DNA from: Tetraselmis striata
Taxonomy: Eukaryota > Chlorophyta > Chlorodendrophyceae > Chlorodendrales > Chlorodendraceae
Direction: 5' to 3'
Length of the DNA: 64,000 nucleotides
Assembly (NCBI GenBank): GCA_006384855.1
Contig: VCJN01002976.1
Span: forward strand, 52,161-116,160
In this document: in pieces, positions 17,101 through 64,000 of the stretch
Layout of the letters: each line of letters begins with the position of its first letter
How positions within the stretch are numbered: the stretch's first letter is position 1
Notes under the pieces: model-generated
Told to the model about the DNA's origin: nothing
Databases searched by the model: none
The model's input: the letters and a program-made list of their open reading frames with translations, nothing else
Program-made: the position numbers and the translations under genes

Positions 17101-20100
17101 GTGAGGCGGAGGGGGACGGCCTGACTGACTCGTAAGCCCCCCCCCCCCCCCCCCCCCCCCACCTCCTTCCCGCCTTCCCGCAGCCAAACTATAGACAGCC
17201 GGGAAACGTAGTTTACGTAATCGGCATGTAGGTTTTTTTCATCCTTACAGACCCCAGGATCCGAAATCAATACAAACTGCCCCGATGCGAAACCGGAAGG
17301 CTAAACCTGGAAAATTGAAAAGGCGAACGATGTTCTAAATGGCGTATTTGAAGTGAACGCGTCGATAACTATGATACTATATGTCGGCAGAGCAACTTTC
17401 TATTTTCCTAATATACACAAATATTCCATGAATGCATAACGGGCGTGGATTTGAAACGTTCGCATATCTTCCCGGTACGTACGCTGTGAATAAAAACAGC
17501 AATACCGGCTTCCCTACTCCTACGGATTCATACCTTTTTGGTTGCTGCCGGGTCGCCTGCCGTATCGCTCATGTATAATATGACTCTTAGCCAATACAGT
17601 AAAACCCGTTGTGCCTGGCCCTACTTGAACATGTAGCCATGTAGATAGCTGCATACTTGAGTCAGTGTTGCATACCACAAACATGCCCTATGTACTAAGC
17701 ATGTATACTGTATTCTCTCTCTCAAAATGTTTGAATCGTTTTTGAAAACGCCGTGATTTTTAATGTGCAACACGGATTCAAGTTTGTTGAAGCAGCGCTC
17801 ATATTTGCAATTTTACATGTTATAAGTTTTTGCACTCACTGAGTGCCGCGTACTAATAGGGGTGCGGGCATTGAGGATAGGGTAGCTACCTACTCAATAA
17901 TATCAGGGAACGGTTTAATCTACTCGTTTTACTTTTTCCTACTATTAAGGATCACGGCGCGAATCCGCCTCTACCCGCAACTCATCTTTATTCAGGATAT
18001 ACTTCCGCAACACTATTTTTTCTATTTTTTCGCACACTATGCCCGGCTGTTCCAGTGCTGGTGGGGGCGCGAGGCAAATATCCGGCAGCCTTGCTTTGTC
18101 TTCTTAACTTTCCTTGTCGGTCACACCCGCCAGATCCGGAAACTTAAGTTGACTGGGCGCTCAGTGTCAGGGCGAGTGACCATGAATATGTAAGTCGCCG
18201 GTTCACGATCGGCCGGCGGGCCGTGAGAGCTTCGTCCCTGCAGATTCATACCGTTGTGAATCAGTTAAGGCCAGCAGCAAATCCACCGCTAAAAGCAGTA
18301 CTAGGAGATCAACACAAGCCGCTGAAAAGCGGGCCGCAACCCGCACGAGTAGGGATGGATGAATGATGTGCGCCCGGTTCAGAGTCCGGGAGGGTGATCC
18401 ACAGGCGCGCTGCGCGGCTTCGGCAATTGGGTGACGGACGAATCTGCGCCGTCTGATGAAGCAGGTGCCACTGCAAATTCGTACCGGTTCTGTCTCAGCT
18501 CATAATCAGGTCATCAGGACGCAGTGATTCGGCGCAGGGGTGTGTCGCGAAAATGAACGAGATATGAAACACATTCGTCGCGAGGAAAGAATGGCTAATC
18601 CCAGTTAGCCTTGGCCGTCTGCCTGGATTAGGAGTACATGCACCGGGCATTTACCCCTAATGCCGACTGTATCATTTACATGCCTCCTTGACTCGACTGT
18701 CCGCGCAGCAGAGCGGTGGTCCCTTACGCGAGGTCCTTGCTTCGATTCCAGGTTCTCCCAGTGAGGGCAATATCGACCGGGTGTGTCTCGGGTTCACCTG
18801 GTTGATGCGTTCGCCCTTCGTCGGGTTCAAATGAGGCAATGGTCTAATGACTATGCCAGACCAACGAATGCAGTTGGCGCAAGAGGTCAAGCGCTGGGCC
18901 GCTGAGCATTACAGTACTATCCTAAGCGGCGGGAGGCATAGAGTGTGTAGTTGGTAATAACCGCAAGATACTCATCAGGAAATGTTAAGGTATTAACCAT
19001 GGTGGCGGATTGCGATGACGCAGGAGTCGGGATTGTCCGATGTTAATTAAGGATCATCAGGGTGATGTAATAAAGATTGATATCACCGAGCAATAAGGTA
19101 TTAAAGAAAACCAAGCGCAGCCAGGTACGTCTCCACCGAACACTGGAAATAAGCCCTTCGGGGTTTGAGTGAGGCAATGGTCTATGGGCTATGCCAGACC
19201 TACGACGGCAGTTGGCGCGCAAGAGGTCAAGTGCAGGGGATGTCCCGGGGCGAACTTTACTTTTACTGGAAACATGTATTCATACATGCCACATGTACCG
19301 GCTCCTCGTCTCGCTCGGGGAGTAATCCTTACACTTGAATAACAAATACATCTAGCAATATAAACCGTTACCAGGTTTCTGCCGCGGGGGGTCACTTGTC
19401 CCATTTATGAGGTTGGATGATTTAGGGGTCGTGACTTGCAGAAAGTGGCCTGCTGCATGCCGGATGCTGTTAAATGTGTATATTTGCGTGGCGGGGAACC
19501 TACTACGAGTACGCGTACCCATCACTGTGCCACCCCGCATGTACCTGCTACCCATACATGCATATGTAGCGACTACATGTACTGGGATCAAGCGGCAGCA
19601 GAATTAGGCTTTTTATTTTTATGATTCGTCGTATATATAAACACATCACGGTCGTGCCGTCATCCCTTCTATATTCAGGCGATATTCATCGATTCCCTTG
19701 AAACAATGTTAAAGGTTGTAGGGTTTAAGATAGGTCTAAACCCTAAAAACCTTATATTTCCGTCGATAAGTATCAGGTGCTGTAGCGATTCATGTATAAA
19801 ATCGAAAGCGGGGGTGCCTGCCTGCCGGCGTCCGTTGATCCGCATGGAACTCCGTCGATAAGTATCAGGTGCTGTGGCGATCCATGTTCGAAAGCGGGGT
19901 TGCCTACCTGCCTGCGTCCGTTGATCCGCATGGAATTCCGTCGATAAGTATCAGGTGCTGTAGCGATTCATGTATAAAATCGAAAGCGGGGGTGCCTACC
20001 TGCCGGCGTCCGTTGATCCGCATGGAATTCCGTCGATAAGTATCAGGTGCTGTGGCGATCCATGTTCGAAAGCGGGGGTGCCTACCTGCCTGTGTCCGTT

Positions 20101-23100
20101 GATCCGCATGGAATTCCGTCGATAAGTATCAGGTGCTGTAGCGATTCATGTACGAAATCGAAAGCGGGGGTGCCTACCTGCCTGCGTCCGTTGATCCGCG
20201 TGGAATTCCGTCGATAAGTATCAGGTGCTGTAGCGATTCATGTACGAAATCGAAAGCGGGGGTGCATGCATGCGTCCGTTGATCCGCATGGAATTCCGTC
20301 GATAAGTATCAGGTGCTGTGGCGATCCATGTACGAAATCGAAAGCGGGGGTGCCTACCTGCCTGCGTCCGGTGATCCGCGTGGAATTCCGTCGATAAGTA
20401 TCAGGTGCTGTAGCGATTCATGTACGAAATCGAAAGCGGGGGTGCCTGCCTGCGTCCAGACACATATCATGTTTATTGCCTATCAACACCAAGCAGGATT
20501 ACTGTAGCAATTAGTATCGTAATAACGACTACCTACGTGACAATTATACGAGTACGATAGCCATACTACGAGTTAGTGCCTGCACTATGTGTGCGAGTAT
20601 TAGTACGATGATACAGACGGGTTTATGTACTGTATAATGCTGCCATGTGGCAAAAGTTGTTATTTTGAGACGAATGTCGCCTCGATTGGTACACATTGGG
20701 AATCGAAATGGTGACCTCTAGGTTCCTGCTGGATCGAAACCAATGCTCCGAAACCAGTGTATCAATCGAGGCGCCATTCTCTCGAAAGAACAACTCATGC
20801 CACATGATGGCAGCATTATACAGTATATATACCTGTAGTCGCAGGTACACATCCTGCTAGCACTCGTACGCATGGTGCAGGTACTAACTCGTAGTACAGT
20901 CCCCCTCGTAAGTCTTGCCCTATGCGTATCTGCGTATCGCCACATCAGCACCGGCGGCGCCGACCACCAAGTGGTACAGTGGCGCATTTTTTGATACAAT
21001 TAAGTTCATCAACGGCTTGAGATGTCATACGTGGCGGAGGCGGCCTGCCTGTTCCGCTCGTGATTCCGCTCCGCCCTGGTGCGAACCCTGCCGGGGCCCT
21101 CGGTGGAAATATATCCGAGCGGGGTAGGGGAGGGGGCAATGCAAATATTTTTAGGTTCTCCTACAAAGCCAAGTACAGTGGCTTACCGCGCGACCCACAT
21201 CCGAAGATTTTCCCCGCGTAGGGGCCCGCTGGGCGTAGCCCAATAGCAGAATATGGGAGCGTATTTATGGCCAGCCCTACCACATACCCTGGACAATGCC
21301 CTGGTGGGCTGGTTTTGGAGCAAGCCGCAATTGCAGTATTGGCCGTTTTGCGGGAAGTGCTCACTTGCTTGCATGCCGACGGTGGGGAGAGCGTGCCTTG
21401 GTGAATGTGTTCCGCGATGGTAGAGCTATCTCTCGGCGTGCAGCCGTACACATAGAACGCATATACCTGCGATATAAAAATTCGCGCCCTCGTGACATTG
21501 GGTTATCAAATTTATTATTAACCCTGAACAATGAGACGCACACGTATGGCTTTTACGTGAGCACAACAAACGCCACTTAGGGCTGACCCCACGCATGATG
21601 TCATGTTCGCATATGGCACATGGAAGGGCGCGGCCGGAAACGAAGGCGAGGGCTCATAATGGGCCAAACTACAATTGATGCTTGACAAGGAGGGGAAGAC
21701 TTTTGTAGGCAGGTGTATATCGTCCCTGTGGAATTGTCACACTTAGTACAATGCAATGCAATTAGTACGTACGAGTAGTATTGATGGTGGCGGCTGCTCG
21801 TCCCGCCCGAGATAGGAGGATACATATGAGTGCAGAGAGAAGTCTAAGCATTTTTTCACTGACCATCGGCAACTCTCGGCCGCACACTGTTGGAGTGTCG
21901 CGGGTGAGTCGACCCGTTGCCTGCATGTGCAGGAGTTGCAAACATAGCATGGGCGCACCATGTGTACGCCTTGGTTTGCTTCGGACAGATAGAGTCCCAT
22001 ATACAGGGGCTCTGACTAGTTTCCGAAGCTTCAATGGCCAGGGAACACGTAGTAGGAGAGGGGGGCATCACTGATGCATCGTCCCCTACTACGATGCACT
22101 GCGTGGCACCCCATGGTACTGTATCATCGTAACCCTAGAAAAAGGGCTGAGCACGGTTAGCAGCAGCTTGGGTCGGGCACGGATGGGCAGAAATGCCCGA
22201 TTAGTCGAGTCGGTGGTAAACCCGAATAAGAGGAAGGTTAACGAGTATCTCAAAAGTATAGTAATACTGCATATACGCGTCACTCGTCAGCCTCTGTTTT
22301 TATGACCCGGGTCATCGGCTGCGAGCACACTCGCCGCTGTTGATGGCCCAGCCCTGGGCGGTGGTCCCCATTGGTATCCTGTTCCCCTTTCGGTTTTTTC
22401 TGGTCGTTTCTTGGGTTTCAGTGTTTCCCTGGACCCTTTGGTTCCTTGGCGACTTCCTGGTTCCCGCTGCTCTTCCTTGGTTCTTGGCTCCCTGGCGTGC
22501 TGTTTGGCCCTTAGTTTCAGGCCTGTATCTCTTTTTTGCTGGCAACCTTTCACATTGCCTTTAGTTCTGCTTTTATTAGGCGCATATGTTAAATCACTAA
22601 TGTAAGAATCAACACAATACTCCGTTATCCCTTAATCTTTAGCGTTACCAAGCAATTTATAGTAATACGAGACACGACTTGTAGCAAGCGAGTGGTAATA
22701 GTCCTGCTAGTAGTATTAGTATTGCCTGCGTCCGTATGATTACAACACTATAACGTACAAAATGAATATTTTATATACGATTTATTATGGGCTAATGGCA
22801 CACATATAGATATATGTGTCGAGAACTATCTACACCCATCCACACAAGTCCGGCTTTTGCATTTTCGATTGCAAAGCGCATGCATGTTCAAGGATAACGC
22901 CGGCTGCATGTGCATACATGCTAACTACAGTGGGAATAGTTCGGGCAAACGCCTATTGTGCGCTTTATACCCACCCGCGCGGCAACACGACCATTTGTGG
23001 GCGCCCTTTAAAAAACGCGAAATCAGTGCATGATGCGTTGGCGCTAGAAAATTGTGGGTTGCGCCAACCGTCCAAACCTATGGAACTGGCGGCACTTGTC

Positions 23101-40308: not shown

Positions 40309-42561
40309 TTAGGCATCAGGTAGGAGAGACAGACCATAGACGCTCTGCACGGCTGCGGCAAAGACGCGCGTCAAGTCGAGGTGCGTGTAGTCAACCCAGG
40401 TGAGCCGCGCTGTCGCCTCGAAGCGTCGGACGGCTTGCTGAAGCACCGTCTCCCATGCTACGGCAATGTGGTCACGAGTTTCAAGTCCTCCACGCAGTGC
40501 AGTGTTGCGTGCCTCCAACCACCTTGCAGCATGCTCGGGTGTCATGTCCGATACCACAGCAACGGGTAGACCAGGGAACTTGGCGTGCTGTAGCGCTGTG
40601 CGCAGGTGCTGCAGGAGCTGCTGATTGCGGATGTCCAACATGTCCGAGGTGATCGCTCCTCCTCCACGGCGGCCTTCGTAGGACGCAGGAGCCTCCTGCT
40701 CGACTGCCGGCTCAAAACCTTGGGGCCGCTGCTTGGTGAGTTGCTCGCGTTGGGCGTCCCATCCGGGTTGGCGCATGCGAAGTTCAGGGTTCCGCGCCGA
40801 TCCTGGAGGCAGCACTGCCGGGCGTCCACGCGGTATTGGCACAGTCGACTCCGGCGTCCAGTCAGCCCCCACAGGTTGCGCACGACCTGGAGCTCCAAAG
40901 AAGACTTCACGCAGCTCACGCACGGGCAGCTCCACACACGACGCTCCAGGTAGCAAAGTGCCGTGATCGTCGGTGTCAACGCAATCCAGAAAGGGGTCTG
41001 GCACCTCCACGGCCAAGCGCATGGCACCCGTAGCACCATGGGCAGCCTGAGACTTCTCGAGGATGCGAGAGAACATGGCCTCCAGGTCTGCCATTGTTGA
41101 TGATGTCGCTGCTCCGTCAATATGGGCGTCGTGTCGCCCAGTGAGCATGTGTCCGGCTTTCCTCGCCAAGTCCATCTCGAGCTTGGACAGTCCGGTCTCC
41201 ACGTCCATAGCCCATCCGCGTTGCTGTCCATAGGCAAGGCGGCGCTCTCGCTCCCGCTGGTTGCGCTTCAGTCGTGCGATGAGCGTAGGGTCAGTGATTG
41301 GCTTGTCGCACTCAGTAAAGTTGTGAGCGCCGTCGCACCCAGCGTTCCAGCTCGGTCCTCGTCCGCCTCCGGGTGCGCCTCCATCGCCGCGTCCACCACC
41401 ATGACCACCACGGCCACCTCGGCCTGCGCCTCGGCCGCCTCCACGGCCGCCACGGCCACCAGCGGCGTCGTTGACATACATGGTTGAGCCGAACTTGTTG
41501 GCACACTTTCGGTAGTTGGCTCCGTGAAAGATGTCACGTCCACGCGCCTTTGTGCATGCCTCGCACAACGGGCGGATCTGGTGGGTGTCCTTCACGACGA
41601 CAAGCTGCGCTCGCACACGACGTCCGTTGACCATGGTCCATGTGATGACCGGTTCTTGAGTGCTGGTGCCGTGCTGCCGTCCTCCACCAGCTGCCGGCGC
41701 CGATGCTCCAGTCAGTTCTGCGAAGTGTTGGGCAGCCGTCAAGGCCTCCGCCATTCGAATCTCATCCTTCCTCACGATGTCCTCATAGCGCTCCACCTCC
41801 GCAGCTAGCTCGTCCAAGCGGTCCTCATGAGACTGACGTAGAACAACGATGTCCTTGAGCTGGTGGAAGCCAGCGTCGAGGGACTGCTTGAGCGCCGGAA
41901 TAGAGCGCCACACAGAGGTCATGACGTCGAACGCTTTCTGGTTGAACTTGTCCCACGTGAGGTATGGTAGATGCGCCTTGAGCTCGCGAAGAGTCATCGC
42001 CAAGCTGGCAGGGGTCTCGCGGAAGCCCTCACGGGTGTACGCGTCGTACTCAGTGCGCATCTTTGGCGCCTCATTGAACTTGGTCTCAAAGAGCTCCACA
42101 TAGCGTCGATAGCAGAACTCGTGAAAGGCGTCCGCATCCTCGCGCGATGGCACTTTAATGCGTCCGGATGCAGGGTCGAAGCGGAGAGTTCGTTGTTGAT
42201 AGCGTAGAGTGTCCTTCTGCCATTGATCGATGATGGGCCTGGTGACGGCGTTGATCTCGACATACTCTTGAAGAAGCTGAAGGGAGTCTGCTGGGCTGAA
42301 CACCCACTCCGGTCCGGTGCTCTCGCCTTCCGATGAACCGGCTCCGTCAGCCCTCGGGGCTGATGTTGGTGGCGCCTTGGTAAGCGCGTATGGCACCAAG
42401 ACGTTGGCGTTGAATGAACTGAACCACTCCGTCCATATTAAGGTAGCGCCGTCGAAGCGCTCATGGCGTGGTGTTGTCTCCTTGCGTAGACCACCGGCGA
42501 TTGTCCGCGCGTCTTCTCGCTCCTCGTAGATGCGCTCCTCCGCTGCACTCAGGTCACCCAT
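40309..42561 (-). CDS. 750-aa gag-like protein with RGG region, no pol
   Basis: A long intact frame from ATG 42561 to a stop. The N-terminal 200 residues are helix-rich (WTEWFSSFNANVLVPYALTK). Residues about 230-285 form a likely coiled coil (LAAEVERYEDIVRKDEIRMA). At about 331-351 comes a Cys/His cluster (CEACTKARGRDIFHGANYRK then C), and at about 365-400 an RGG/GRG-rich stretch typical of RNA-binding gag proteins. The rest (ELREVFFGAPGRAQPVGADW; HLDLTRVFAAAVQSVYGL) is unrecognised. No protease, integrase or RT frame adjoins. It is flanked by same-orientation hairpin-row repeats (40010 and 44220), so I infer a non-autonomous gag-only retroelement. The 42570-43080 minus strand holds further coding-like remnants (AFVGNRFINMFSPDFRAPIG). 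A host RNA-binding protein is the alternative. Confidence 0.6.
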   Translation of the reverse strand: MGDLSAAEERIYEEREDARTIAGGLRKETTPRHERFDGATLIWTEWFSSFNANVLVPYALTKAPPTSAPRADGAGSSEGESTGPEWVFSPADSLQLLQEYVEINAVTRPIIDQWQKDTLRYQQRTLRFDPASGRIKVPSREDADAFHEFCYRRYVELFETKFNEAPKMRTEYDAYTREGFRETPASLAMTLRELKAHLPYLTWDKFNQKAFDVMTSVWRSIPALKQSLDAGFHQLKDIVVLRQSHEDRLDELAAEVERYEDIVRKDEIRMAEALTAAQHFAELTGASAPAAGGGRQHGTSTQEPVITWTMVNGRRVRAQLVVVKDTHQIRPLCEACTKARGRDIFHGANYRKCANKFGSTMYVNDAAGGRGGRGGGRGAGRGGRGGHGGGRGDGGAPGGGRGPSWNAGCDGAHNFTECDKPITDPTLIARLKRNQRERERRLAYGQQRGWAMDVETGLSKLEMDLARKAGHMLTGRHDAHIDGAATSSTMADLEAMFSRILEKSQAAHGATGAMRLAVEVPDPFLDCVDTDDHGTLLPGASCVELPVRELREVFFGAPGRAQPVGADWTPESTVPIPRGRPAVLPPGSARNPELRMRQPGWDAQREQLTKQRPQGFEPAVEQEAPASYEGRRGGGAITSDMLDIRNQQLLQHLRTALQHAKFPGLPVAVVSDMTPEHAARWLEARNTALRGGLETRDHIAVAWETVLQQAVRRFEATARLTWVDYTHLDLTRVFAAAVQSVYGLSLLPDA

Positions 42562-43144
42562 GATCTGATTGGGCGTGTAGTGCTGACTTCCAGGTGGTCG
42601 TCGTCTTGATGGTGTTCAAGATCCTACGGCGCTGGGGTCTCCACCGCGCTGCGCCATGGCGTCACGGAGCGCTTGACGCAAGACGCGCTCCGGCTCCAAT
42701 AAGGGTGCTGTCACAGGTGCTCCGGTACTCCTCGTGAAGCGTCGTCTGAGTTGGCGCGGGCTCTCTCCCTCTGACATGCGCCTTGCTCAGTGACCGCTCC
42801 CACCCCAATTGGCGCGCGGAAGTCTGGACTGAACATGTTGATGAAGCGGTTGCCGACGAACGCGCTCCAGGCTGAGGTAACCACCACACGCGGCTCCTCT
42901 CAGCTCGTTGCACGCGTTGTAGGTGTAGGCGATGCCTCCTACGCGCGCCTTGCAGAGTGCCTTGCCAACAATAGCGCAGAAGATCGGCGCCGATGAACGT
43001 TGCACTGTGATGACTTGCTCCCTCCACTTGTGAAGACGTGGCTGACTGCAAGAGGTGAGGGCGTCCCCTGAACAACCTCGAGGTCAGCGTCTAAGTGGGG
43101 GTATTGGGATGTGGGCGTTCAGGACTAAGACCACTTAGGAACAG

Positions 43145-52739: not shown

Positions 52740-53270
52740 ACCTGAACTGTTTTAAGCAGTGTACTTTTTTAAAATGCTGGCTTTTTGTAATTCACACCAG
52801 TACCCGGATACCCTCGGCCGATGAGAAATGCAGTAGCGATCGCTATCCTGTCCAAAGAGTTGTTAGCCGCGTGAAACAAATGACATGATTGATGACAGCC
52901 GCAGTCCGACAGGTTGTATATATGAGGTACATGTATGGGTGGATATTATTCCAGGTGCATGTTTGATGTTTCCGATGCGTATCACGTGTTTCCGTACAGT
53001 ACATTGTCTTGCAGTGGGTGATTCTCAGACATATTCAAATAATGCAAGGACAGTGTTTCAATTCTGAGTCTGGTTCTGCCAAAAATATCGCGCCGGCGGT
53101 TCTACACGGTCGGGGGCCGAAAGTGGCGCAAACGTCAGCGCAGGTTCAGCAGTCAAGACAGCAATCCTATTTGAAACTCAAGAATTCCATTTGAAATTCA
53201 GGCAACATTTAAGGCGCCGGTATATAATGCACTTGGGATTTGGTCGTTCCGCTGCCGGTTCCCCTACCTC
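52740..53270 (+). repeat. Composite repeat segments A-right and C, copy 2
   Basis: Nearly identical to 63560-64000: TTTTTGTAATTCACACCAGT, GCCGCGTGAAACA, GACATGATTGATGACAGCCG, TCCAGGTGCATGTTTGATGT, GTATCACGTGTTTCCGTACA and TCGCGCCGGCGGTTCTACAC. Segment C then follows (GTCAGCGCAGGTTCAGCAGT). Confidence 0.9.
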
Positions 53271-55399: not shown

Positions 55400-55701
55400 G
55401 GAGTGAAAGGGGAGATTTCACGGAAGGGGGAAGTAGTGCTCGCGTTGCTTGGTTTCCCTAAAAGTCGGGGGGGGGGGGGGGGGGGGGGAAGGGGGGAATT
55501 CTGACGCACATCGGTCAAATGTTTTTAACATGCGGATGTGCGGACATGTAGTATCGTTGGCAGGCGAGGCGCGGGATGGCAAGGCGCGGCGCGTATGGTG
55601 AGGTGACCGGCGCGGTCTTTGGCCGGTCATCGGTCTTGACGTGGCCAAGCGGGCAAAGTACTATAGGTAATCCGAGGCGGTGATACCGAGGGGATACTAC
55701 A
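55400..55701 (-). repeat. Composite repeat segment A-left, copy 3, split by copia
   Basis: Leader region with G22 at 55467-55488, GATGGCAAGGCGCGGCGCGT and the hairpin around GACCGGCGCGGTCTTTGGCC. It ends GGTGATACCGAGGGGATACT + AC at the copia insertion. The other half resumes at 63029. Confidence 0.8.
55467..55488 (+). repeat. Poly-G tract (22 G)
   Basis: An uninterrupted G run at the place where the other copies of repeat A have GGGAGGCAGGGGGGAA, so the run has expanded in this copy. Confidence 0.97.
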
Positions 55702-56182
55702 TGTTGGACCCAGGGTATCCGGGTACCTGAATCCGCTTTTTCTCTCTGTGAAATCCGCATTTTTCTGGCTGCCGTACATGTGCCTAATTTGGACCTTATG
55801 GCAGCAGTACGGCACCAAAGCATGGCACCTAGGCATCATTGCCAGTTGGCCTTCTTAGACGGAGAGGTGTCCGTTCTAATTGACACCTAGCCGGCTGGTA
55901 TAAATTGCCAGCCTCGGCTCCTTGTAATAGAGTCAACTGCTTTTCCAGAAATATTCCGACTCACCCTTTCTATCTCGTGACAGTGCCACTCAGCCATCAC
56001 CACGGCGACAGCGACTACCTATCGTCCATCGCCCACGGCTCATAGCAGCCCTTTGCCTTTCCAGCTTGCACCTTGCTTGCTGGCACTCGACGTGATTCGA
56101 CGCGTGCACGCCGACTCTCGCCGACTCTCCCCCCATCACTGACAGTGCCACTCAACCATCACTTCGACAATCCCCTCCGACA
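55702..56182 (+). repeat. Copia 5' LTR (481 bp)
   Basis: From TGTTGGACCCAGGGTATCC to CAATCCCCTCCGACA. It has canonical TG...CA ends. The following bases (GGTTTTTGGGCCC) do not match the initiator-Met tRNA primer site common in copia elements, so the primer is unknown. Confidence 0.9.
55893..55915 (+). promoter_or_regulatory. LTR TATA box inside a hairpin loop
   Basis: GGCTGG-TATAAATTG-CCAGCC: a TATAAAT box enclosed by a perfect 6-bp inverted repeat. Upstream, AGGTGTC...GACACCT forms another stem. Both are kept in the 3' LTR (about 62735-62757). This is the likely transcription start region of the element. Confidence 0.6.
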
Positions 56183-56372
56183 GGTTTTTGGGCCCTCTCC
56201 TTTGGTTCGACGTCTTGCCCCGTGCTCGACGCCTGCCAAAGGCTTCAACCTGCGTGTATATCGACCCTCGACAACTTTCGACGATCGACGGCACCGTGCG
56301 ACGAGTTTTTCTTCCCACCCGCCCACCCCTACAGTCATACATCCTCAAGCACAAGTGCGCCATCCCTTCGCA

Positions 56373-58994
56373 ATGTCTACCAGCATCAACACCGGCATGA
56401 TGAACACCCCCCTGGCCAATCTGGCTCGGCAGAGTGCGATCAAGACCGACCCTGGCCACGCCCCACCACCTCCTGACTTCCGTGATGATACCAGTTCTGA
56501 CGACGCCTTCAGCATGGACGGGGCGTCAGACAATGACTCCGAGGTCGTCCAGCATATCAAGCCAGCTGCAGTGAAGCCGGCACTCGACCTCAAGAACGTC
56601 CCCATCTGGGACAACACCATCTCTACACGAGACAACGCTCAAGCCATCAAGATCGCTCTCGGCAGCGCTGGCTACTTGGACACCACCAAGGGCGAAGGCA
56701 CCCGTCATGAGCAAATGATCCTTCTGGCCGCCCTACGCCACGCAACAGCCCATTATCCCATGGCACTGGCCATCGTCAACAGCATCAACATGGATTCCAG
56801 GAAGTGTGGATACACCGCATGGAAGGCTCTTCTTACTAAGCTCCAGGGCTCTGCCATGGAGGAGCGTAAGCGCTTGGAGGAAGAGATCACAGCGGGCCAG
56901 CTCCCGAATGAGCCGGTTCAGGTGTATGTTCGGCGCTACCAGAACCTCTGGAATCTGCTGAACAAGGCACATGGCCAGTGGACCTTCGAGTACGTGGCTG
57001 CCAACTACCTCATCCCATGCCTTCACCCAGACTACGATCATATCGTCGACACCACCACCTCGGCGGCCACTGTCAACGAGAAGCTGGCAACCATCATCAG
57101 CGCCGGACAGAACATGGAGGCGCGCAAGCGTCAGCGTCAGCAGCGCGTCCGCGCGTGCCCACCCAACCTCAATTCCTACAGCCCCAGGGACCCGCAGCAC
57201 ACCACCGGGCCCAGCGTTGTCTGCAGGCGGTGTGACCGTCCGGGCCATACCCAGCAGCAGTGTGTGGCCAGGCGCCATGCCAATGGCATGCGTATCCTGG
57301 ATGACACCACGCCGACCAGCACCATGACCAACCCTCGCTATGACCGCCATCAGCGCGCGCCTGCGGAGCGTCGCGTCAACACCAACTATGGCCACCACCC
57401 GCGCGACAACTACCGCCAGCAGGCACCGACATGCCAGCCTTTCTACAACGACAACCGCAACAATCAGGACAGGCCCCAGCGGCAGCAGCGTTGGACAAAC
57501 CAGGGCGGCAACGGCGGCATGCAGCGTCATCAGCAGCCGGTCGGCTTCGTCTCCCCGGCCGGACATCAGCACCCGGGTCATCAGCAGGCCAGCGACACCT
57601 TCACCCAGCGGCCGATGGGACACCATGAGGCCTACCCGTTCGTGGGAGTGTCCCCATCAGCACAACACCACAGCAGCCTGCCTATCATGCTCACCTGCAA
57701 CACTACCGCCCCAGGAGGGGCGGACACCGGAGCACATGAGGGGGAGGGCGAGGACAGCGCGGAGGATGACTTACATGACCCCTGGCACGTCCCCTACTCC
57801 GACTCTTATGCCGACTTCGAGTCCCCATTCTCACACTCATGGCATGTTCACCGCTCCCGCCCTCACCCAGACGCCTTCCCGATCTTCGATACCCCCGACA
57901 TCCCCCCCCGCTGGAACGTTTACTCCCATCCCTACTCCCTCGATCCCCCCATCCACCTATTCGACATCAATTGGCAACGTCCCCACCCCGTCCCCACCCC
58001 AGCCCAACCCCTATGCCTCACTTCACCCACATTCCCCGCCTCGGCGGCGTTGGCATCCCACATTCTTCAAGCGGAGCAAGGCGCCCTGCGTGGCGACCCG
58101 CCACCAACACTACCGCTCCTCACCGCTGCGCCGATCCTCCCGCTGCCAACCTCTCTGGTCATCGACCATCTCTTTTCGCCCTGCCATGGCCCATTGGCAT
58201 CTGAAGTAGAGGCTCTGGTAGAATACGGCTTCACCATCCACAAGATCACCAGCGCCGACCCGTCGCCCGAGGCTCGTACTATGTGGACGCATCGCCTACA
58301 TTTCATCAACGACAAGTACCCGGACCGTCTGCCCCCTTCAGCATTTCAGGACTGTCATGCCATGACCCCCATGGACGTCAACAACATCACCATCGCGGAG
58401 CTGGAGACCCTGCGTCCGGTCACCCTCATCGTGTCAGGCCCACCGTGTCAACCATGGTCGCGCGCTGGCTCACGCCTTGGCTGGCAGGACCATCGCTCTC
58501 GGGCCTTTGCTTCCGTCATCAGTTTCATCCGTTTCTACCTGACTACACAGCCCACACCGGTGCGCTACATTGTGGAGAATGTTCCAGGCGCGCTGGACTT
58601 CCCTGAGATACTCTCCTCACTTGGCACCGGCAACATCATGCGTGCGACCGCATGCGGCTCGGCGGCTCACCGCGACACCCTCCTGTGGACCAATATCGCT
58701 TCGCAAACCGACGTCCAGGACTACATCAACATCATCAACGCCATCGAGCTCACCAACCCCGGCCCTTGCGCGTGGGACCTCTGTATATCCGAATTCCCCC
58801 ACTTTACTCAAGTGGTGACAACTGACTACTTTCCGAAGTTCGTCGCCCGCCCCGGCTCATACGCTTTTCGCATGCAAACCAACGGTCAGCCGGGCACTGG
58901 CATGGTCTACGATCTGGTACTGGGCAGACAACGGCAGATGGTGCGAACCCCCTGCAGCTCTACGCGCTCGCGCCATGGGCTTCACCTTGAATGA
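56373..58994 (+). CDS. Copia gag-CCHC-methyltransferase ORF (873 aa)
   Basis: The frame is open from 56073 inside the LTR; the ATG at 56373 is the first that starts ordinary gag sequence. Residues about 60-260 are a copia-type gag (NVPIWDNTISTRDNAQAIKI; YVRRYQNLWNLLNKAHGQW). The zinc knuckle CRRCDRPGHTQQQC is at 284-297. A His/Gln/Pro-rich linker runs to about 590. From about 597 the protein resembles a C5 cytosine methyltransferase: LVIDHLFSPCHGPLASEVEA (degenerate motif I region), motif IV VSGPPCQPWSRAG with Cys692, motif VI VENVPGA with Glu735, and motif VIII ACGSAAHRDTLLWTN, like the AHR...W-N of DNMT3. The frame ends in motif IX and continues in the +1 frame at 58975. The first glycine-rich SAM loop (usually F-G-G) is poorly kept, so activity is uncertain. 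Confidence 0.88.
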   Translation: MSTSINTGMMNTPLANLARQSAIKTDPGHAPPPPDFRDDTSSDDAFSMDGASDNDSEVVQHIKPAAVKPALDLKNVPIWDNTISTRDNAQAIKIALGSAGYLDTTKGEGTRHEQMILLAALRHATAHYPMALAIVNSINMDSRKCGYTAWKALLTKLQGSAMEERKRLEEEITAGQLPNEPVQVYVRRYQNLWNLLNKAHGQWTFEYVAANYLIPCLHPDYDHIVDTTTSAATVNEKLATIISAGQNMEARKRQRQQRVRACPPNLNSYSPRDPQHTTGPSVVCRRCDRPGHTQQQCVARRHANGMRILDDTTPTSTMTNPRYDRHQRAPAERRVNTNYGHHPRDNYRQQAPTCQPFYNDNRNNQDRPQRQQRWTNQGGNGGMQRHQQPVGFVSPAGHQHPGHQQASDTFTQRPMGHHEAYPFVGVSPSAQHHSSLPIMLTCNTTAPGGADTGAHEGEGEDSAEDDLHDPWHVPYSDSYADFESPFSHSWHVHRSRPHPDAFPIFDTPDIPPRWNVYSHPYSLDPPIHLFDINWQRPHPVPTPAQPLCLTSPTFPASAALASHILQAEQGALRGDPPPTLPLLTAAPILPLPTSLVIDHLFSPCHGPLASEVEALVEYGFTIHKITSADPSPEARTMWTHRLHFINDKYPDRLPPSAFQDCHAMTPMDVNNITIAELETLRPVTLIVSGPPCQPWSRAGSRLGWQDHRSRAFASVISFIRFYLTTQPTPVRYIVENVPGALDFPEILSSLGTGNIMRATACGSAAHRDTLLWTNIASQTDVQDYINIINAIELTNPGPCAWDLCISEFPHFTQVVTTDYFPKFVARPGSYAFRMQTNGQPGTGMVYDLVLGRQRQMVRTPCSSTRSRHGLHLE

Positions 58995-61296
58995 TCTGCC
59001 CACATCTCACCTTTCTGAGGCGACACTGCGCAAACTTCTCGGCGGGGTCATCGATCTCAACGTCATGCGCAACTACATCAAGCCTGTCTCGGGCGCCGCC
59101 CCTTCCCCAGCCGTCATCACTGTCTGCCACACGTCATACGGCACCCTCATCACCCGCGATGGCGAGGCATGGGTGCTCATCGACTCGGGAGCATCCTCTC
59201 ACGTCAACGCCCACCGCACCGACTACATCTATTACATGGACATTCCTGCGGCGGAGCAATTTCTGGTGGGCGGTTTCGGGCAACCGGCAGTCGGCATCGG
59301 CACCACGCTGGCGCCAACACTAGACATCACAGGCAGGCCACATACCATTGTGGCACGAGACTGTTACCATACTCCTGACATCACCTCCAGTGCCGGTCTC
59401 ACCAACATCAGCCGCCTCCTCAGCACCCATCAACTCAGCAAGCAGGGCTACTCTTTCTACTTCAGCCGCCTCCTCAACAGCATGATCACCCCAAATGGCG
59501 CAGTCATCCACCTTCAGCCCTACCCCGGCACCACATGCATGTACGGCATCAAGCTCCTTCCCTGCCGCGATCCGTCTCATGGGGTCATGGCACTGCCATC
59601 TCCAACGGCCTCCTACTCCCTGTGGCATCTTCGACTTGGTCATCGCTGCGCGCGCCACATGGTGCTCACCCAACAACATGCCATCGGCATCCCGAAACTC
59701 GGATCTGCACCGGAGGCCATGTGCCCAGCGTGCATTCAGGCCAAATCCCACCAGCAGTCAGTCAACCGTCAGCCCTCCCCACGCGCGGAGGCACCATACA
59801 TGCTCGTGGTCATCGACGATTGGAAGGGACCTTGTCCGTCGGTCACTGGCGCGCAGCATGTTTTCGGCGCGGTGGATTCCTACACTGGAGTAAAGGTAGC
59901 GATCACCATGCGCACCAAGGACGAGGCCGTCCGCGCCGTCCATCAACTTCATGCGGCGGTTCTCGGCATGGGTCACACCGTTCAACGCATACGTGCCGAT
60001 CGCAGCGCGGTTTATACCGGCTCTCCGTTTCATCAAGCATGTGCAGACCTCAACATCGCGCTGGAGTTTACCGCATCCCACTCTCATCATCAGGCAGGCC
60101 TGGCGGGGCGCTCTTTCCGCACTATCGGTGAGTGTGCCCAAGCCATGCTTCTCCACGCCGGCCTCGGCCGCACCTTCTGGGACTGGGCCTATCTTCACGC
60201 CGTCTATCTCTGCAACCGCCAGTGGAGCTCGTCCGTCAACGCCATACCTTACACGCTGATGACCGGTCGCAAACCCGACCTCGCCAACCTACATGTTTTC
60301 GGCTGTGTGGCCTGGGTCAACATACCTGTGACTATGCGGGCAGCCAAGGGAAAAATGACACCTAAATCCTGGCCGGGCATCTACGTTGGCCACCATGAGG
60401 ACTCCGCCGGCTACCGCATATACAACCCGGCTACCAGGCGCGAAACGGTTACACGCGATGTCATCTTTGATGCGGTGACACGACCCTTCTCCAGCACACC
60501 GGCACTCTCTATGCCAGTCTTCCAGCTCCCCGACGATGACCACATGATGGATGAGCCGCAACCCTTGGACCAACAGGAAGGGCCCCACGCGCCACCTCCC
60601 ATGCCGCCACCCATGCCACCATCAGCGGCGCTTGCCTCCGCGCATGAGGGGCCCCCACCTCCGCAGCGAGAAGGGACGTATCTTCCGCGTCATCAGGAGG
60701 GGGACGCCACAGCACTGCCAACTCCTCACGCCAGTGGATCAGCGCACATATCTTCTCCTTGTGTCGACCTTAGCGACTACCACCCCAAGTTGGTAGCATC
60801 CGCCATCGCGGAGGTTGTGCGCCCCTACCCGGCGCACATGGCCGCCCTCGCCCTGCGTGCACCCACTGTCCGCGTGTCCAAGGCGCCGCGCAACTACAAG
60901 GAGGCCATCTCCAGCAATCACCCCGATGACTGGAAACAGTCCATGGACCGAGAGATTGCCTCTATCAACAAGATGGAGACCTTTGTTTGGATCAGCATTC
61001 CTGACCTTCGCCGTGACAACCCATCAGCAATCATCATACAAACGGCGTGGGCCTTTGCGGAGAAACAAGACAAGGATGGCAACCTCATCAAGCGCAAGGC
61101 CAGAGTGGTTCTCCGCGGCGATCAACTTACTGCCGGCGAGAACTATGATGACACTAAGACCTATGCCCCAGTCGTCAGCTTCATCGCCTTGCGCACCACT
61201 ATTGCTCTCGCAGTTCAACTTGACTGGGAGCTGTACCAGTTCGACGTCACCTGTGCTTTCCTCAACGCTAACCTCGATGAAGATGTCTACGTCTAA
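58975..61296 (+). CDS. Copia pol ORF: MTase C-terminus, protease, integrase, RT start
   Basis: Overlaps the gag ORF by 20 nt in the +1 frame. The first 45 residues (MGFTLNDLPTSHL; LLGGVIDLNVMRNYIKPV) match the motif IX-X end of C5 methyltransferases. The retropepsin motif LIDSGASSHV has DSG at 70-72. The integrase zinc residues are His218, His223, Cys250 and Cys253. The catalytic core has Asp281/282 and Asp342, but the position of the third acidic residue, 36 after Asp342, is Gly378 (LAGRSF instead of -AERxx). A Pro-rich linker follows, then the RT start (WELYQFDVTCAFLNANLDED). The frame stops at TAA 61294 beside a C21 run. Confidence 0.9.
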   Translation: MGFTLNDLPTSHLSEATLRKLLGGVIDLNVMRNYIKPVSGAAPSPAVITVCHTSYGTLITRDGEAWVLIDSGASSHVNAHRTDYIYYMDIPAAEQFLVGGFGQPAVGIGTTLAPTLDITGRPHTIVARDCYHTPDITSSAGLTNISRLLSTHQLSKQGYSFYFSRLLNSMITPNGAVIHLQPYPGTTCMYGIKLLPCRDPSHGVMALPSPTASYSLWHLRLGHRCARHMVLTQQHAIGIPKLGSAPEAMCPACIQAKSHQQSVNRQPSPRAEAPYMLVVIDDWKGPCPSVTGAQHVFGAVDSYTGVKVAITMRTKDEAVRAVHQLHAAVLGMGHTVQRIRADRSAVYTGSPFHQACADLNIALEFTASHSHHQAGLAGRSFRTIGECAQAMLLHAGLGRTFWDWAYLHAVYLCNRQWSSSVNAIPYTLMTGRKPDLANLHVFGCVAWVNIPVTMRAAKGKMTPKSWPGIYVGHHEDSAGYRIYNPATRRETVTRDVIFDAVTRPFSSTPALSMPVFQLPDDDHMMDEPQPLDQQEGPHAPPPMPPPMPPSAALASAHEGPPPPQREGTYLPRHQEGDATALPTPHASGSAHISSPCVDLSDYHPKLVASAIAEVVRPYPAHMAALALRAPTVRVSKAPRNYKEAISSNHPDDWKQSMDREIASINKMETFVWISIPDLRRDNPSAIIIQTAWAFAEKQDKDGNLIKRKARVVLRGDQLTAGENYDDTKTYAPVVSFIALRTTIALAVQLDWELYQFDVTCAFLNANLDEDVYV

Positions 61297-62124
61297 GCCC
61301 CCCCCCCCCCCCCCCCCCTACCCGGCTACGGCCGCAAGGATCAGGCTTGGAAACTCGTTAAGGCACTCTATGGCATGCCGCAGGCACCCAATGCATGGTT
61401 TCTGCGCTTTTCTTCTTTTCTCCGTGACTTCGGCTTCGTCAGCTCCGAGTGCCATCCATGCGTATGGACGCTGCTCGCAGCCGATAAATCGCTGCTGGCC
61501 ATCCTATGCGTCTACGTCGATGACATCATGCTGGCTACCTCCCCGTCGTCCGACATCCGGGAGCGTTTTCATACTTCTCTCTTCTCTACGTTTGATGCGA
61601 CTACTGACGGCCTATGCACCTGGCTTCTTGGCATGGCCATTGATCGCAAGCCGGGAGGCGTGCTCCACCTCCATCTCGAGAAATACATCAACGACATCTT
61701 GACTACCTTCAACATGGCGGCGTGCGCGCCTCGCCGCCTACCCTGCACACCGGATACCGATTTTCATGACCCTACAGGCACGCCCCTCGACACCAAACTC
61801 GTTCCCTATCCCAATCTTGTTGGTAGCCTTATCTGGCTGGCTGTGGCATCACGCCCGGACATTGCGTTCGTGGTCGGCCGCCTGTGCGCCTACATGGCGT
61901 CCCCCACCGAGCGTCACTGGCAGATCGCCGTATCAGTGCTGCGCTACCTCAAGGGCACCCCCAACCATGGCCTCATTTTCCGGAAGCAACTGGACAACGA
62001 GGCACCTGACTTCCTCTTTTTTGTGGACGCTGACTGGGCAACCGTCGTGCCCAAACGCCGCTCCACTACCGGCTATCTTGCCCTGGTGCATGGCACCCCA
62101 GTCGCCTACCGCGCGCAAGTTTAG
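61297..62124 (+). CDS. Copia pol continuation: RT catalytic part
   Basis: Same frame as 58975-61296, after TAA 61294. C21 translates as prolines and then PGYGRKDQAWKLVKALYGMP, the usual '-PPGY-----V-KL-KALYG' region. The catalytic YVDD is at 61513-61524 (ILCVYVDDIMLA). RNase H begins FFVDADWATVVPKRRSTTGY. The frame stops at TAG 62122, where copia elements normally have Gln of the 'KKQ' motif before (K/R)(S/T)V. Confidence 0.88.
   Translation, partial: APPPPPPLPGYGRKDQAWKLVKALYGMPQAPNAWFLRFSSFLRDFGFVSSECHPCVWTLLAADKSLLAILCVYVDDIMLATSPSSDIRERFHTSLFSTFDATTDGLCTWLLGMAIDRKPGGVLHLHLEKYINDILTTFNMAACAPRRLPCTPDTDFHDPTGTPLDTKLVPYPNLVGSLIWLAVASRPDIAFVVGRLCAYMASPTERHWQIAVSVLRYLKGTPNHGLIFRKQLDNEAPDFLFFVDADWATVVPKRRSTTGYLALVHGTPVAYRAQV
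61298..61318 (+). repeat. Poly-C tract (21 C) within the copia RT
   Basis: A C run inside coding sequence at the position of the conserved 'QPPGY' prolines. Its length keeps the reading frame. Confidence 0.95.
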
Positions 62125-62535
62125 AAGAGCGTGGCCCTATCTACTGCCGAGGCGGAGTTCGTGGCGCTCTGCATGGCCTGCAAATGTCTGGCGTTTATTC
62201 GCGTTCTTCTGCGCCAATTCCACCACCCCACCACTGACCCGGTACGGGTATGCGAGGACAATCAGGCGTGCATCGTTCAGGTGAAACATGGTATGATTAC
62301 AGGCGCGCAACGCCACATTGACCTCAAGTTTCACCATGCAGCCCAACTCTGCCAAGATGGCGTCATCGACATGCACTACACGCCTACCGCAGACCAGCTC
62401 GCCGATTTCTTCACTAAGGCGCTGCCGCTGACTACCTTTCTTCGTTTCCGCGCTTTCCTGATGGGGTCATCCGAGGAGCCATGTGTTGCGCCTCTGCCGC
62501 CATCAGTCTTGCGCCCGCGGGATTCCACAGGATGA
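62125..62535 (+). CDS. Copia pol end: RNase H
   Basis: Same frame again after TAG 62122. KSVALSTAEAEFVALCMACK holds the second catalytic acid, VCEDNQACIVQV the third, then QRHIDLKFHHA and TPTADQLADFFTKALP, the standard copia RNase H ending. It stops 7 nt before the 3' LTR, with the polypurine tract overlapping the end. Confidence 0.9.
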   Translation, partial: KSVALSTAEAEFVALCMACKCLAFIRVLLRQFHHPTTDPVRVCEDNQACIVQVKHGMITGAQRHIDLKFHHAAQLCQDGVIDMHYTPTADQLADFFTKALPLTTFLRFRAFLMGSSEEPCVAPLPPSVLRPRDSTG

Positions 62536-62542
62536 GGAGGGG
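62529..62542 (+). other. Polypurine tract
   Basis: AGGATGAGGAGGGG directly precedes the TG of the 3' LTR, the usual site of plus-strand priming. Confidence 0.8.
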
Positions 62543-63028
62543 TGTTGGACCCAGGGTACCCCGGTACCCTGAATCCGCTTTTTCTCTCTGTGAAATCCGC
62601 ATTTTTCTAGCTGCCGTACATGTGCCTAATTTGGACCTTATGGCAGCAGTACGGCACCAAAGCATGGCACCTAGGCATCTTTGCCAGTTGGCCTTCTTAG
62701 ACGGAGAGGTGTCCGTTCTAACTGACACCTAGCCGGCTGGTATAAATTGCCAGCCTCGGCTCCTTGTAATAGAGTCAACTGCTTTTCCAGAAATATTCCG
62801 ACTCACCCTTTCTATCTCGTGACAGTGCCACTCAGCCATCACCACGGCGACAGCGACTACCTATCGTCCATCGCCCATGGCTCATAGCAGCCTTTTGCCT
62901 TTCCAGCTTGCACCTTACTTGCTTGCTGGCACTCGACGTGATTCGACGCGTGCACGCCGACTCTCGCCGACTCTCCCCCCATCAATGACAGTGCCACTCA
63001 GCCATCACTTCGACAATCCCCTCCGACA
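62543..63028 (+). repeat. Copia 3' LTR (486 bp)
   Basis: TGTTGGACCCAGGGTACCC to CCCCTCCGACA. It differs from the 5' LTR by about a dozen substitutions, a 4-bp CTTG-type gain and a 1-bp indel near the start. Confidence 0.92.
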
Positions 63029-63535
63029 CTACCAGTACCAGGGTTAGCTACACTCGTACCGATAATCGGCTGCCCGATATCGATACGAGTACCGCGCGAT
63101 ACACCGTTACTCGGGTGCCCGTGTGCCGGCTATATGGCTATACATGCGGTTGCCCGCGTGTACGTGACATGCTCGAATCTTCTGAATTGCTTTCACTGGT
63201 TTCGGAGCCTTGGCTGCGATCCAGGTCACTGGTTCGATCTCCCTATCCCCCGCCAGAAATCGAATTAGTCGTCGTCCATGGATGGGACAGGATTGAATTA
63301 TTGTTAGCTATACTCGTCCCGATACTCGGCTGCCCGATATCGATACGAGTACAGCGCGGTATACCGGTACTCGGCTGCCCGTGTACCGGCCAGATGGCTG
63401 TATATGCGGTTGCCCGCGGGTATATGACATGCTCGGATCTTTTGAATTGCATCCCGCGGGCAGCCGAGTACCGGTATACCGCGCTGCACTCCTATCGATA
63501 TCGGGCGGCGTCCTAGTATCGGTACGAGTCCAGCT
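63029..63535. repeat. Direct and inverted repeats (foldback) right of copia
   Basis: Two direct copies of about 148 bp (63044-63191 and 63303-63452) share CTCGTACCGATAATCGGCTG-like, GCCCGATATCGATACGAGTA, TATGCGGTTGCCCGCG and GACATGCTCG. A third partial copy (63457-63530) is inverted: CGGGCAGCCGAGTACCGGTA, TACCGCGCTGCA and CTATCGATATCGGGC. The last two can fold into a long hairpin. A tRNA-like repeat sits between the direct copies. Confidence 0.75.
63185..63255 (+). repeat. tRNA-derived repeat (SINE family 2), copy 3
   Basis: CACTGGTTTCGGAGCCTTGG, then CGATCCAGGTCACTGGTTCG + ATCTCCC, a tRNA-like layout with B-box GGTTCGATCTCC. Confidence 0.5.
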
Positions 63536-63559: not shown

Positions 63560-64000
63560 TGCGTTAAGCGGTGTACTTTTAACTGCTGGCTTTTTATGAT
63601 TCACACCAGTATCTGGATACCCTCTGCCGATGAAAATCAGACAAATGTCTTCCTCTGGCGTGTCCCAAGAGTTGGCCGCGTGAAACACATGACACGATTG
63701 ATGACAGCCGCAGTACGTTTCCGACTATCTGTCAACAACAGGTTGTATGTATGAAGTACATGTATGGGTGGGTATTATTCCAGGTGCATGTTTGATGTTT
63801 CCGATGCGTATCACGTGTTTCCGTACAGTACATTGTCTTGCAGTGGGCGATTCTCAGACATATTCAAATAATGCCAGGACAGTATTTCAATTCTGAGTCT
63901 GGTTCTGCCGAAAATATCGCGCCGGCGGTTCTACACGGTCGGGGGCCGAAAGTGGCGCAAACGTCAGCGCAGGTTCAGCAGTCAAGACAGCAATCCTATT
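63560..64000 (+). repeat. Composite repeat segments A-right and C, copy 3 (runs off the window)
   Basis: Very close to 52780-53180, from CTGGCTTTTTATGATTCACA to CAAGACAGCAATCCTATT at the last base. Together with 55400-55701 it is the other half of the repeat copy split by the copia insertion. Confidence 0.88.

Follow-up and report, generated by a model that had tools for sequence, protein, structure and literature searches.

DNA methyltransferases (DNMTs) carried by retrotransposons have been reported from some algae and protists, as an earlier note on the DNA studied here, made from its sequence alone, had correctly stated. In the excerpts of de Mendoza 2018 available to us (PMC5890265), the closest described system is KnitGypsy-Dnmt3 of Klebsormidium nitens, a gypsy retrotransposon with long terminal repeats (LTRs), whose polyprotein contains a Dnmt3-type domain under purifying selection. 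The same excerpts describe SymbioDIRS-Dnmt3 and SymbioLINE-Dnmt from dinoflagellates, whereby two of the DIRS enzymes methylate CG in yeast, as well as Copia elements of Symbiodinium without any DNMT domain. Here, we describe an LTR retrotransposon of the Ty1/copia type from Tetraselmis striata, a chlorophyte of the class Chlorodendrophyceae. It lies at positions 55702-63028 of a stretch of 64,000 nucleotides (assembly GCA_006384855.1, contig VCJN01002976.1, positions 52,161-116,160, forward strand), which as a whole is called the window in the following. The polyprotein of this element harbors a cytosine-C5 methyltransferase domain, apparently of the DNMT3 type, between the gag zinc knuckle and the protease.

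Like KnitGypsy-Dnmt3, it is a green-lineage algal LTR retrotransposon with a Dnmt3-type domain under purifying selection in its polyprotein; however, KnitGypsy-Dnmt3 is a gypsy element with the domain in Pol, whereas the present one is a Ty1/copia element in which gag precedes and the protease follows the domain. This likeness follows the description in the paper (PMC5890265, in part), and none of the rows that we compared is labelled as Symbiodinium or Klebsormidium. The dinoflagellate elements also carry a DNMT but belong to other classes (DIRS and LINE, long interspersed nuclear element) and other hosts. In general, a DNMT in the coding region, many copies and purifying selection make up the same pattern as described in the available parts of the 2018 paper. 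A publication from 2025 (PMC12344493, likewise available in part) speaks in one phrase of DNMT3 embedded in “LTR Copia and DIRS” elements. Copia is thereby named as a DNMT3 carrier, but the phrase is credited to the 2018 paper, which describes Gypsy, and Tetraselmis is mentioned nowhere in the main text as available. Our searches of the open-licence PMC literature found no paper on Tetraselmis copia DNMTs. We regard a copia element with a DNMT3-type domain between gag and protease as a new variant on the known retrotransposon-borne DNMTs.

A C5 Methyltransferase Domain Is Part of a Ty1/Copia Polyprotein

The Pfam profile DNA_methylase (PF00145) matched the window frame with an E-value of 1.1e-9 (38.6 bits, curated cut-off 22), and a chance match of motifs was ruled out by the Pfam E-values together with the predicted fold. 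The motifs PCQ (Cys692), ENV (Glu735) and AHR...WTN, on which the earlier note had based its proposal, are present at 58437-58694 (residues counted from the Met at 56373). The domain is placed between the zinc knuckle (57219-57287) and the DSG of the protease (59182-59190), as had been claimed, in the window copy as well as in open-frame copies. Due to a net shortage of 11 bases at 58912-58913, the end of the domain with motifs IX-X falls into the next frame, which the alignment to an open-frame copy confirmed. The first S-adenosylmethionine (SAM) loop, previously described as poorly conserved, is indeed atypical. It is near certain that a C5 methyltransferase domain is located inside the Ty1/copia polyprotein between zinc knuckle and protease. 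The assignment to Ty1/copia is based on TG...CA LTRs with a target-site duplication and on RVT_2 with the integrase ahead of the reverse transcriptase (RT), found in the window and in the open-frame copy L021 (PF00665, then PF07727). The element of the window has the following features:

55697-55701 (strand not assigned), 5' target-site duplication copy CTACA, read from the sequence
55702-56182 (+), 5' LTR of 481 bases, TGTTGG...CCGACA, 97.1% identical to the 3' LTR
56373-58994 (+), open frame that starts at the first gag Met and covers most of the methyltransferase
57219-57287 (+), gag CCHC zinc knuckle CRRCDRPGHTQQQC, read as a motif, with weak zf-CCHC Pfam matches (E 0.09-0.16)
58143-59088 (+), DNMT3-type cytosine-C5 methyltransferase domain in two frames, as suggested by PF00145, open-copy alignment, family profile, tree and fold
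58437-58460 (+), motif IV GPPCQPWS with the catalytic Cys (Cys692 codon 58446-58448)
58575-58589 (+), motif VI ENVPG with the catalytic Glu (Glu735 codon 58575-58577)
58662-58694 (+), motif VIII AAHRDTLLWTN, DNMT3-like, Thr in place of the second Arg
58912-58913 (+), frame break in the methyltransferase, from the alignment to the open copy
59176-59448 (+), protease region LIDSGASSH, DSG at 59182-59190, by motif; Pol_BBD (E 0.053) below cut-off
59557-59748 (+), GAG-pre-integrase domain (PF13976, E 2.3e-7)
59791-60084 (+), integrase core (PF00665, E 9.6e-7, just under the curated cut-off)
60262-60474 (+), SH3-like domain after the integrase (PF25597, E 4.3e-22)
61033-61746 (+), copia reverse transcriptase RVT_2 in two pieces (PF07727, E 3.6e-16 and 5.5e-19)
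61747-62535 (+), end of pol without Pfam match, which from its position and motifs we take to be RNase H, with an internal stop at 62122-62124
62530-62542 (+), polypurine tract GGATGAGGAGGGG ahead of the 3' LTR, read from the sequence
62543-63028 (+), 3' LTR of 486 bases
63029-63033 (strand not assigned), 3' target-site duplication copy CTACC with one mismatch

The RT of the window copy is broken by a stop (61294-61296) and by extra bases in a poly-C tract (near 61294-61320). Given the LTR identity, the imperfect duplication, the frame break in the methyltransferase, this RT damage and the stop at 62122-62124, the window copy is an old, broken member of a recently mobile Ty1/copia family, named family A in the following. 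A repeat pair with 87% identity on the same strand flanks the element (52752-53171 and 63564-64000), and the copia may be inside or next to another repeat.

Family A and Other Copia Families of the Genome Share the Arrangement

The genome sequence (224.1 Mb, 2903 contigs) contains at least 144 matches to the window-copy domain; the match lists of 144, 133 and 152 used in this study overlap and each is a lower bound. Many copies were found, a good part of them with stops. The best 20 copies, including the window copy itself, are 95-100% identical and show motif IV in 18, motif VI in 19 and motif VIII in all 20 cases, whereas the diverged loci L053-L056 each show one or two of these three motif patterns. 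The earlier note had named a lack of the PCQ/ENV motifs in other family copies as refuting its proposal, which these counts do not show. L021 and L022 have a single open frame across the whole polyprotein (2162 and 2130 aa). The LTR identities of the six long copies L021-L026 are 100, 99.8, 98.6, 99.8, 99.6 and 100%, and all five copies examined for duplications (L021, L022, L024-L026) have exact, mutually different 5-bp target-site duplications (GACAT, GTTTC, AGTAG, GTTCT, CTTAG), which identifies them as separate recent insertions. A protein database search with the L021 domain yielded 12 matches, eight of which are gene models labelled jgi/Tetstr1, which we read as T. striata, the best with 99% identity over the whole domain.

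Altogether, five copia families with a methyltransferase are present in T. striata: A, C (2152- and 2164-aa frames, methyltransferase 41% identical), D (2299 aa), D2 (2483 aa, fetched over 2244 aa) and a 2147-aa family, whose methyltransferase was seen solely in a protein match. Zinc knuckle, motif IV, protease and YVDD follow one another in this order in all five cases checked, namely families A, C, D and D2 and the copia P0066 from a metagenome. P0066 (on an ENA contig of 139,593 bases) has the identical order of gag zinc knuckle, DNMT, protease, integrase and RT, and shares 35% identity with family D in the methyltransferase. Another abundant copia family, with a frame of 1561 aa, probably has no methyltransferase module, judged by length with only the RT fetched.

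In family B, the frames are 1235-1237 aa long and encode gag plus a shortened form of the methyltransferase, with most of protease and integrase missing. In all four fetched copies (L030-L033), on which the statements on this family are based, both the catalytic Cys and Glu are gone, and the LTRs are 98.0-99.6% identical. Family B appears to be non-autonomous and to ride on family A. The domain also occurs outside copia elements of this genome: a single frame of about 3505 aa in a LINE (fetched in part as L047:3-6695) contains RVT_1, a PCIF1_WW-like domain, the methyltransferase and RNase H, and this LINE has four copies at 92-100%. Similar LINEs from elsewhere are P0012 and P0067.

The Methyltransferase Is Under Purifying Selection

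When the family A methyltransferase was compared with four diverged copies, the ratio of nonsynonymous to synonymous substitution rates (dN/dS) was 0.16-0.31, with upper bounds of 0.25-0.63. Within family C, values of 0.33 for the methyltransferase, 0.27 for gag and 0.25 for RT-RNase H (RT-RH) were obtained, compared to 0.91 for the spacer before the methyltransferase and 0.79 for protease-integrase. Within family D, the methyltransferase has 0.20 versus 0.71 for the spacer, whereby the pair used (L046/L049) may be mosaic since its synonymous divergence (dS) is higher in the methyltransferase (0.19) than in the other regions (0.04-0.08); for the family D copy L049:375-5789, a mosaic formed by recombination is suggested. 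These data demonstrate purifying selection on the methyltransferase in families A, C and D. Between A and C, where synonymous sites are saturated, no other listed region reaches the identity of the methyltransferase (40%), and dN/dS amounts to 0.33 for the methyltransferase and 0.31 for RT-RH. Between D and D2, identity is 52% in the methyltransferase, 30% in the spacer, 25% in gag, 49% in the linker, 63% in protease-integrase and 73% in RT-RH. For A against the dead family B, dN/dS is 0.51 in the methyltransferase and 0.37-0.42 in gag. For the family B remnant, values of 0.16-0.38 were obtained, compared to 0.75-3.9 for the remaining, degenerate part (upper bounds for the remnant 0.64-1.30; six pairs that are not independent). 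Possibly, this remnant is a DNMT3L-like pseudoenzyme that may still be constrained.

The Domain Is Related to DNMT3 and to Other Retroelement-Borne Methyltransferases

The window sequence alone placed M.HaeIII first (E 1e-4), followed by DNMT2 (0.003) and DNMT3B (0.022). The family profile scored DNMT3A at 65.5 bits among solved structures, with M.HhaI as best non-DNMT3 match at 43.0 bits. A maximum-likelihood tree, which holds one cellular DNMT3, put the family beside DNMT3A (support 97/95), and a search with the predicted fold listed 50 rows, the top 37 of which are DNMT3. The motifs follow the unpermuted order with a motif VIII of the DNMT3-lineage type SAxxR...WxN. Profile, tree and fold thus support that the domain is nearest to DNMT3 among C5 enzymes, and the resemblance proposed in the earlier note is borne out by them, though not by the window sequence on its own. 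In contrast to DNMT3A/3B, the domain has PCQ for PCN, Cys for Phe in motif I and one motif VIII Arg lost, and ADD or PWWP domains gave no Pfam match in the copia polyprotein of the window or the open copy. A bacterial Dcm-like origin is not favoured by family profile and tree, although M.HaeIII came first with the window sequence.

The protein searches revealed further elements with the domain, namely gypsy elements with an additional PHD finger (P0010, P0011), the LINEs P0012 and P0067 and the copia P0066. A further group consists of the gypsy proteins P0013 and P0041 together with P0015, P0016, P0017 and P0021, in which the methyltransferase alone was seen. P0058 is 93% identical to the Cymbomonas tetramitiformis protein P0056. 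In one of these searches, scoring was confined to the 8000 candidates with the most words in common, and cellular DNMT3s may thus have been missed.

Active-site residues were compared in 16 rows, 12 with retroelement domains and four with the methyltransferase only (a host-exon row was left out). The catalytic Cys (motif IV) and Glu (motif VI) are present in all 16 rows and also in the window copy. In each of the ten rows that make up the group of copia, PHD-gypsy and LINE elements, Cys replaces the motif I Phe, as it does in three of the six other rows, and the second motif VIII Arg is replaced by Thr (nine rows) or Ala (one row), whereas the other six rows have Arg. In P0013, one of these six, the first motif VIII Arg is missing instead. 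Family A has Cys for Phe in motif I and Thr for the second Arg in motif VIII and lacks the canonical residues at these places; family C has CCE in place of PCQ. The motif I Phe and the two motif VIII Arg are common in C5 methyltransferases without being defining by themselves, and they matter in DNMT3A and M.HhaI. The common residue change argues for a shared descent of the ten rows.

As for the source of the module, the other DNMTs of the host were considered, but the multi-exon host gene (two exons only) as well as the 325-aa and 311-aa enzymes fall outside the DNMT3 group in the tree. The standalone frame of ~325 aa has several similar copies (L041, L043-L045; contigs C776, C1647, C2337, C355, C1455), and the contigs C776 and C1230 with this methyltransferase also carry many 1561-aa copia RTs. 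A further C5 methyltransferase frame of 630 aa (L039, C2009:28600-31000) looks bacterial and is possibly from a contaminant contig. A cellular DNMT3 was not recognised among the 123 PF00145 matches listed, most loci of which are unread, and the exon-wise search can miss one. In IMG/VR, 80 loci out of at least 179 relatives were considered, most of which match around motifs IV-VI only; eight were read and five entered into the tree (L072, L073 and L100 were dropped beforehand). Among these five, L057-L059 are DNMT3-like and lie outside the group of the retroelement rows and DNMT3A, so that a viral source is not favoured by the loci in the tree, although a placement of DNMT3A with them was rejected in a borderline manner (p-AU 0.044).

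The copia methyltransferases form one group in the best tree, with weak support (74/51). A single clade of the rows taken as gypsy was rejected (p-AU, from the approximately unbiased test, 0.012), whereby P0015, P0016, P0017 and P0021 were counted as gypsy by tree position alone. In the RT tree (seven rows, two long branches), A and C (98/98) are apart from D, D2 and the 2147-aa family, and the RT of the 1561-aa copia is closer to that of D (50%) than the RT of A is (34%). This suggests that the module was lost in the 1561-aa family or gained more than once in copia. The simplest reading of these sequence comparisons would be an exchange of the module between retroelement classes, with repeated capture from one unsampled cellular lineage as the alternative. 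In the best explanation, the module would come from a retroelement-borne DNMT3 lineage common to gypsy and LINE rather than from a recent capture from this host. The wider proposal is that such a lineage, with its own active site (motif I Cys, motif VIII R-x-T), has been passed as a module among copia, gypsy and LINE instead of being captured anew per host, and serves here inside a Gag-DNMT-Pol particle protein; we put it forward tentatively, a little short of even confidence. If a single enzyme lineage did spread through three classes of retroelements, the published view, in which the enzymes were captured repeatedly from hosts, would have to be revised.

Possible Function of the Enzyme in the Retrotransposon Particle

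DNA methylation is a main weapon of many cells against transposons, and a transposon that makes its own methyltransferase thus reverses this logic. From the fusion directly behind the zinc knuckle and ahead of the protease, we infer that the enzyme would enter the particle with Gag at a Gag-like dose and be cut free by the protease inside the particle, where the cDNA is made. There it might methylate cytosines, probably of CpG, in new element cDNA before or during integration. The marked cDNA could then enter the genome resembling host DNA, or be soon quieted, and marking would shield the copy from degradation or limit damage to the host, so that long-term persistence is favoured. Methylation of cDNA would be the most economical role, by analogy with the two active DIRS enzymes (PMC5890265, in part). 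For this explanation as a whole, a Gag - DNMT3-type methyltransferase - protease - integrase - RT polyprotein whose packaged enzyme methylates new cDNA and aids persistence, we see about equal chances of being right or wrong. Young open copies, an arrangement that predicts packaging and family B as a natural control make the use of the enzyme to the element testable in the alga.

Several observations weigh against this explanation. The Klebsormidium gypsy and Symbiodinium LINE enzymes were inactive in yeast, a result that the authors deem inconclusive (PMC5890265, in the parts available). The motif I Cys and the lost motif VIII Arg could reduce or alter activity. In 23 pooled, non-independent copies, the transition excess at CpG is modest (166/12249 versus 277/35237 at other C/G; in the reverse direction 215/12411 versus 170/34959). 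The CpG observed/expected ratio is 0.90 in the family A frame and 0.80-0.98 in the others, compared to 1.00 in the rest of the window. With this modest excess and slight CpG shortage, the elements give no clear sign of heavy methylation. Moreover, family B moved with a dead remnant in all four copies, which indicates that methyltransferase activity in cis is dispensable, whereby family A could provide it in trans. Finally, a grouping of DNMT3A with phage enzymes rather than with the retroelement rows was rejected in a borderline manner (p-AU 0.044).

It could also be that the domain is a non-catalytic binder or decoy, as the earlier note had considered, which binds DNA and steers integration or titrates host methylation factors like a DNMT3L-type partner. 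The atypical SAM loop and motif I, the lost second motif VIII Arg and the open frame that the non-autonomous family B keeps over its remnant without catalytic residues (dN/dS 0.16-0.38) would fit to this. Purifying selection and the catalytic Cys and Glu kept throughout copia, gypsy and LINE rows weaken it, and we consider it unlikely. Methylation of RNA instead of DNA, either of the genomic RNA inside the particle or of its tRNA primer, might help packaging, stability or priming. The domain adjoins the RNA-binding zinc knuckle inside Gag, the changed motif VIII Arg and motif I Phe of the copia/LINE/PHD-gypsy group hint at another substrate, DNMT2 ranked ahead of DNMT3B for the window domain by itself, and such a role was raised for the LINE enzymes (PMC5890265, in part); even so, we judge it quite improbable. 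Similarly low we would rate self-restraint to the benefit of the host, proposed in the same excerpts, in which the enzyme marks new copies for host silencing with less harm and longer coexistence. It agrees with the cDNA-methylation step and with the many copies with stops, but the very young copies with identical LTRs mean that silencing is incomplete. That the domain is a passenger without function, carried by chance, as the dead version in family B and the abundance of the 1561-aa family might suggest, is very improbable in view of the dN/dS values in A, C and D and the module in five copia families of this genome.

Other Features of the Window

Rfam yielded nothing in the window at gathering scores. 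On the minus strand, a 767-aa open frame (40309-42612) without Pfam match above cut-off has a gag-like look and is perhaps part of another mobile element. A tandem array with units of ~90 bases is located at 19758-20457.
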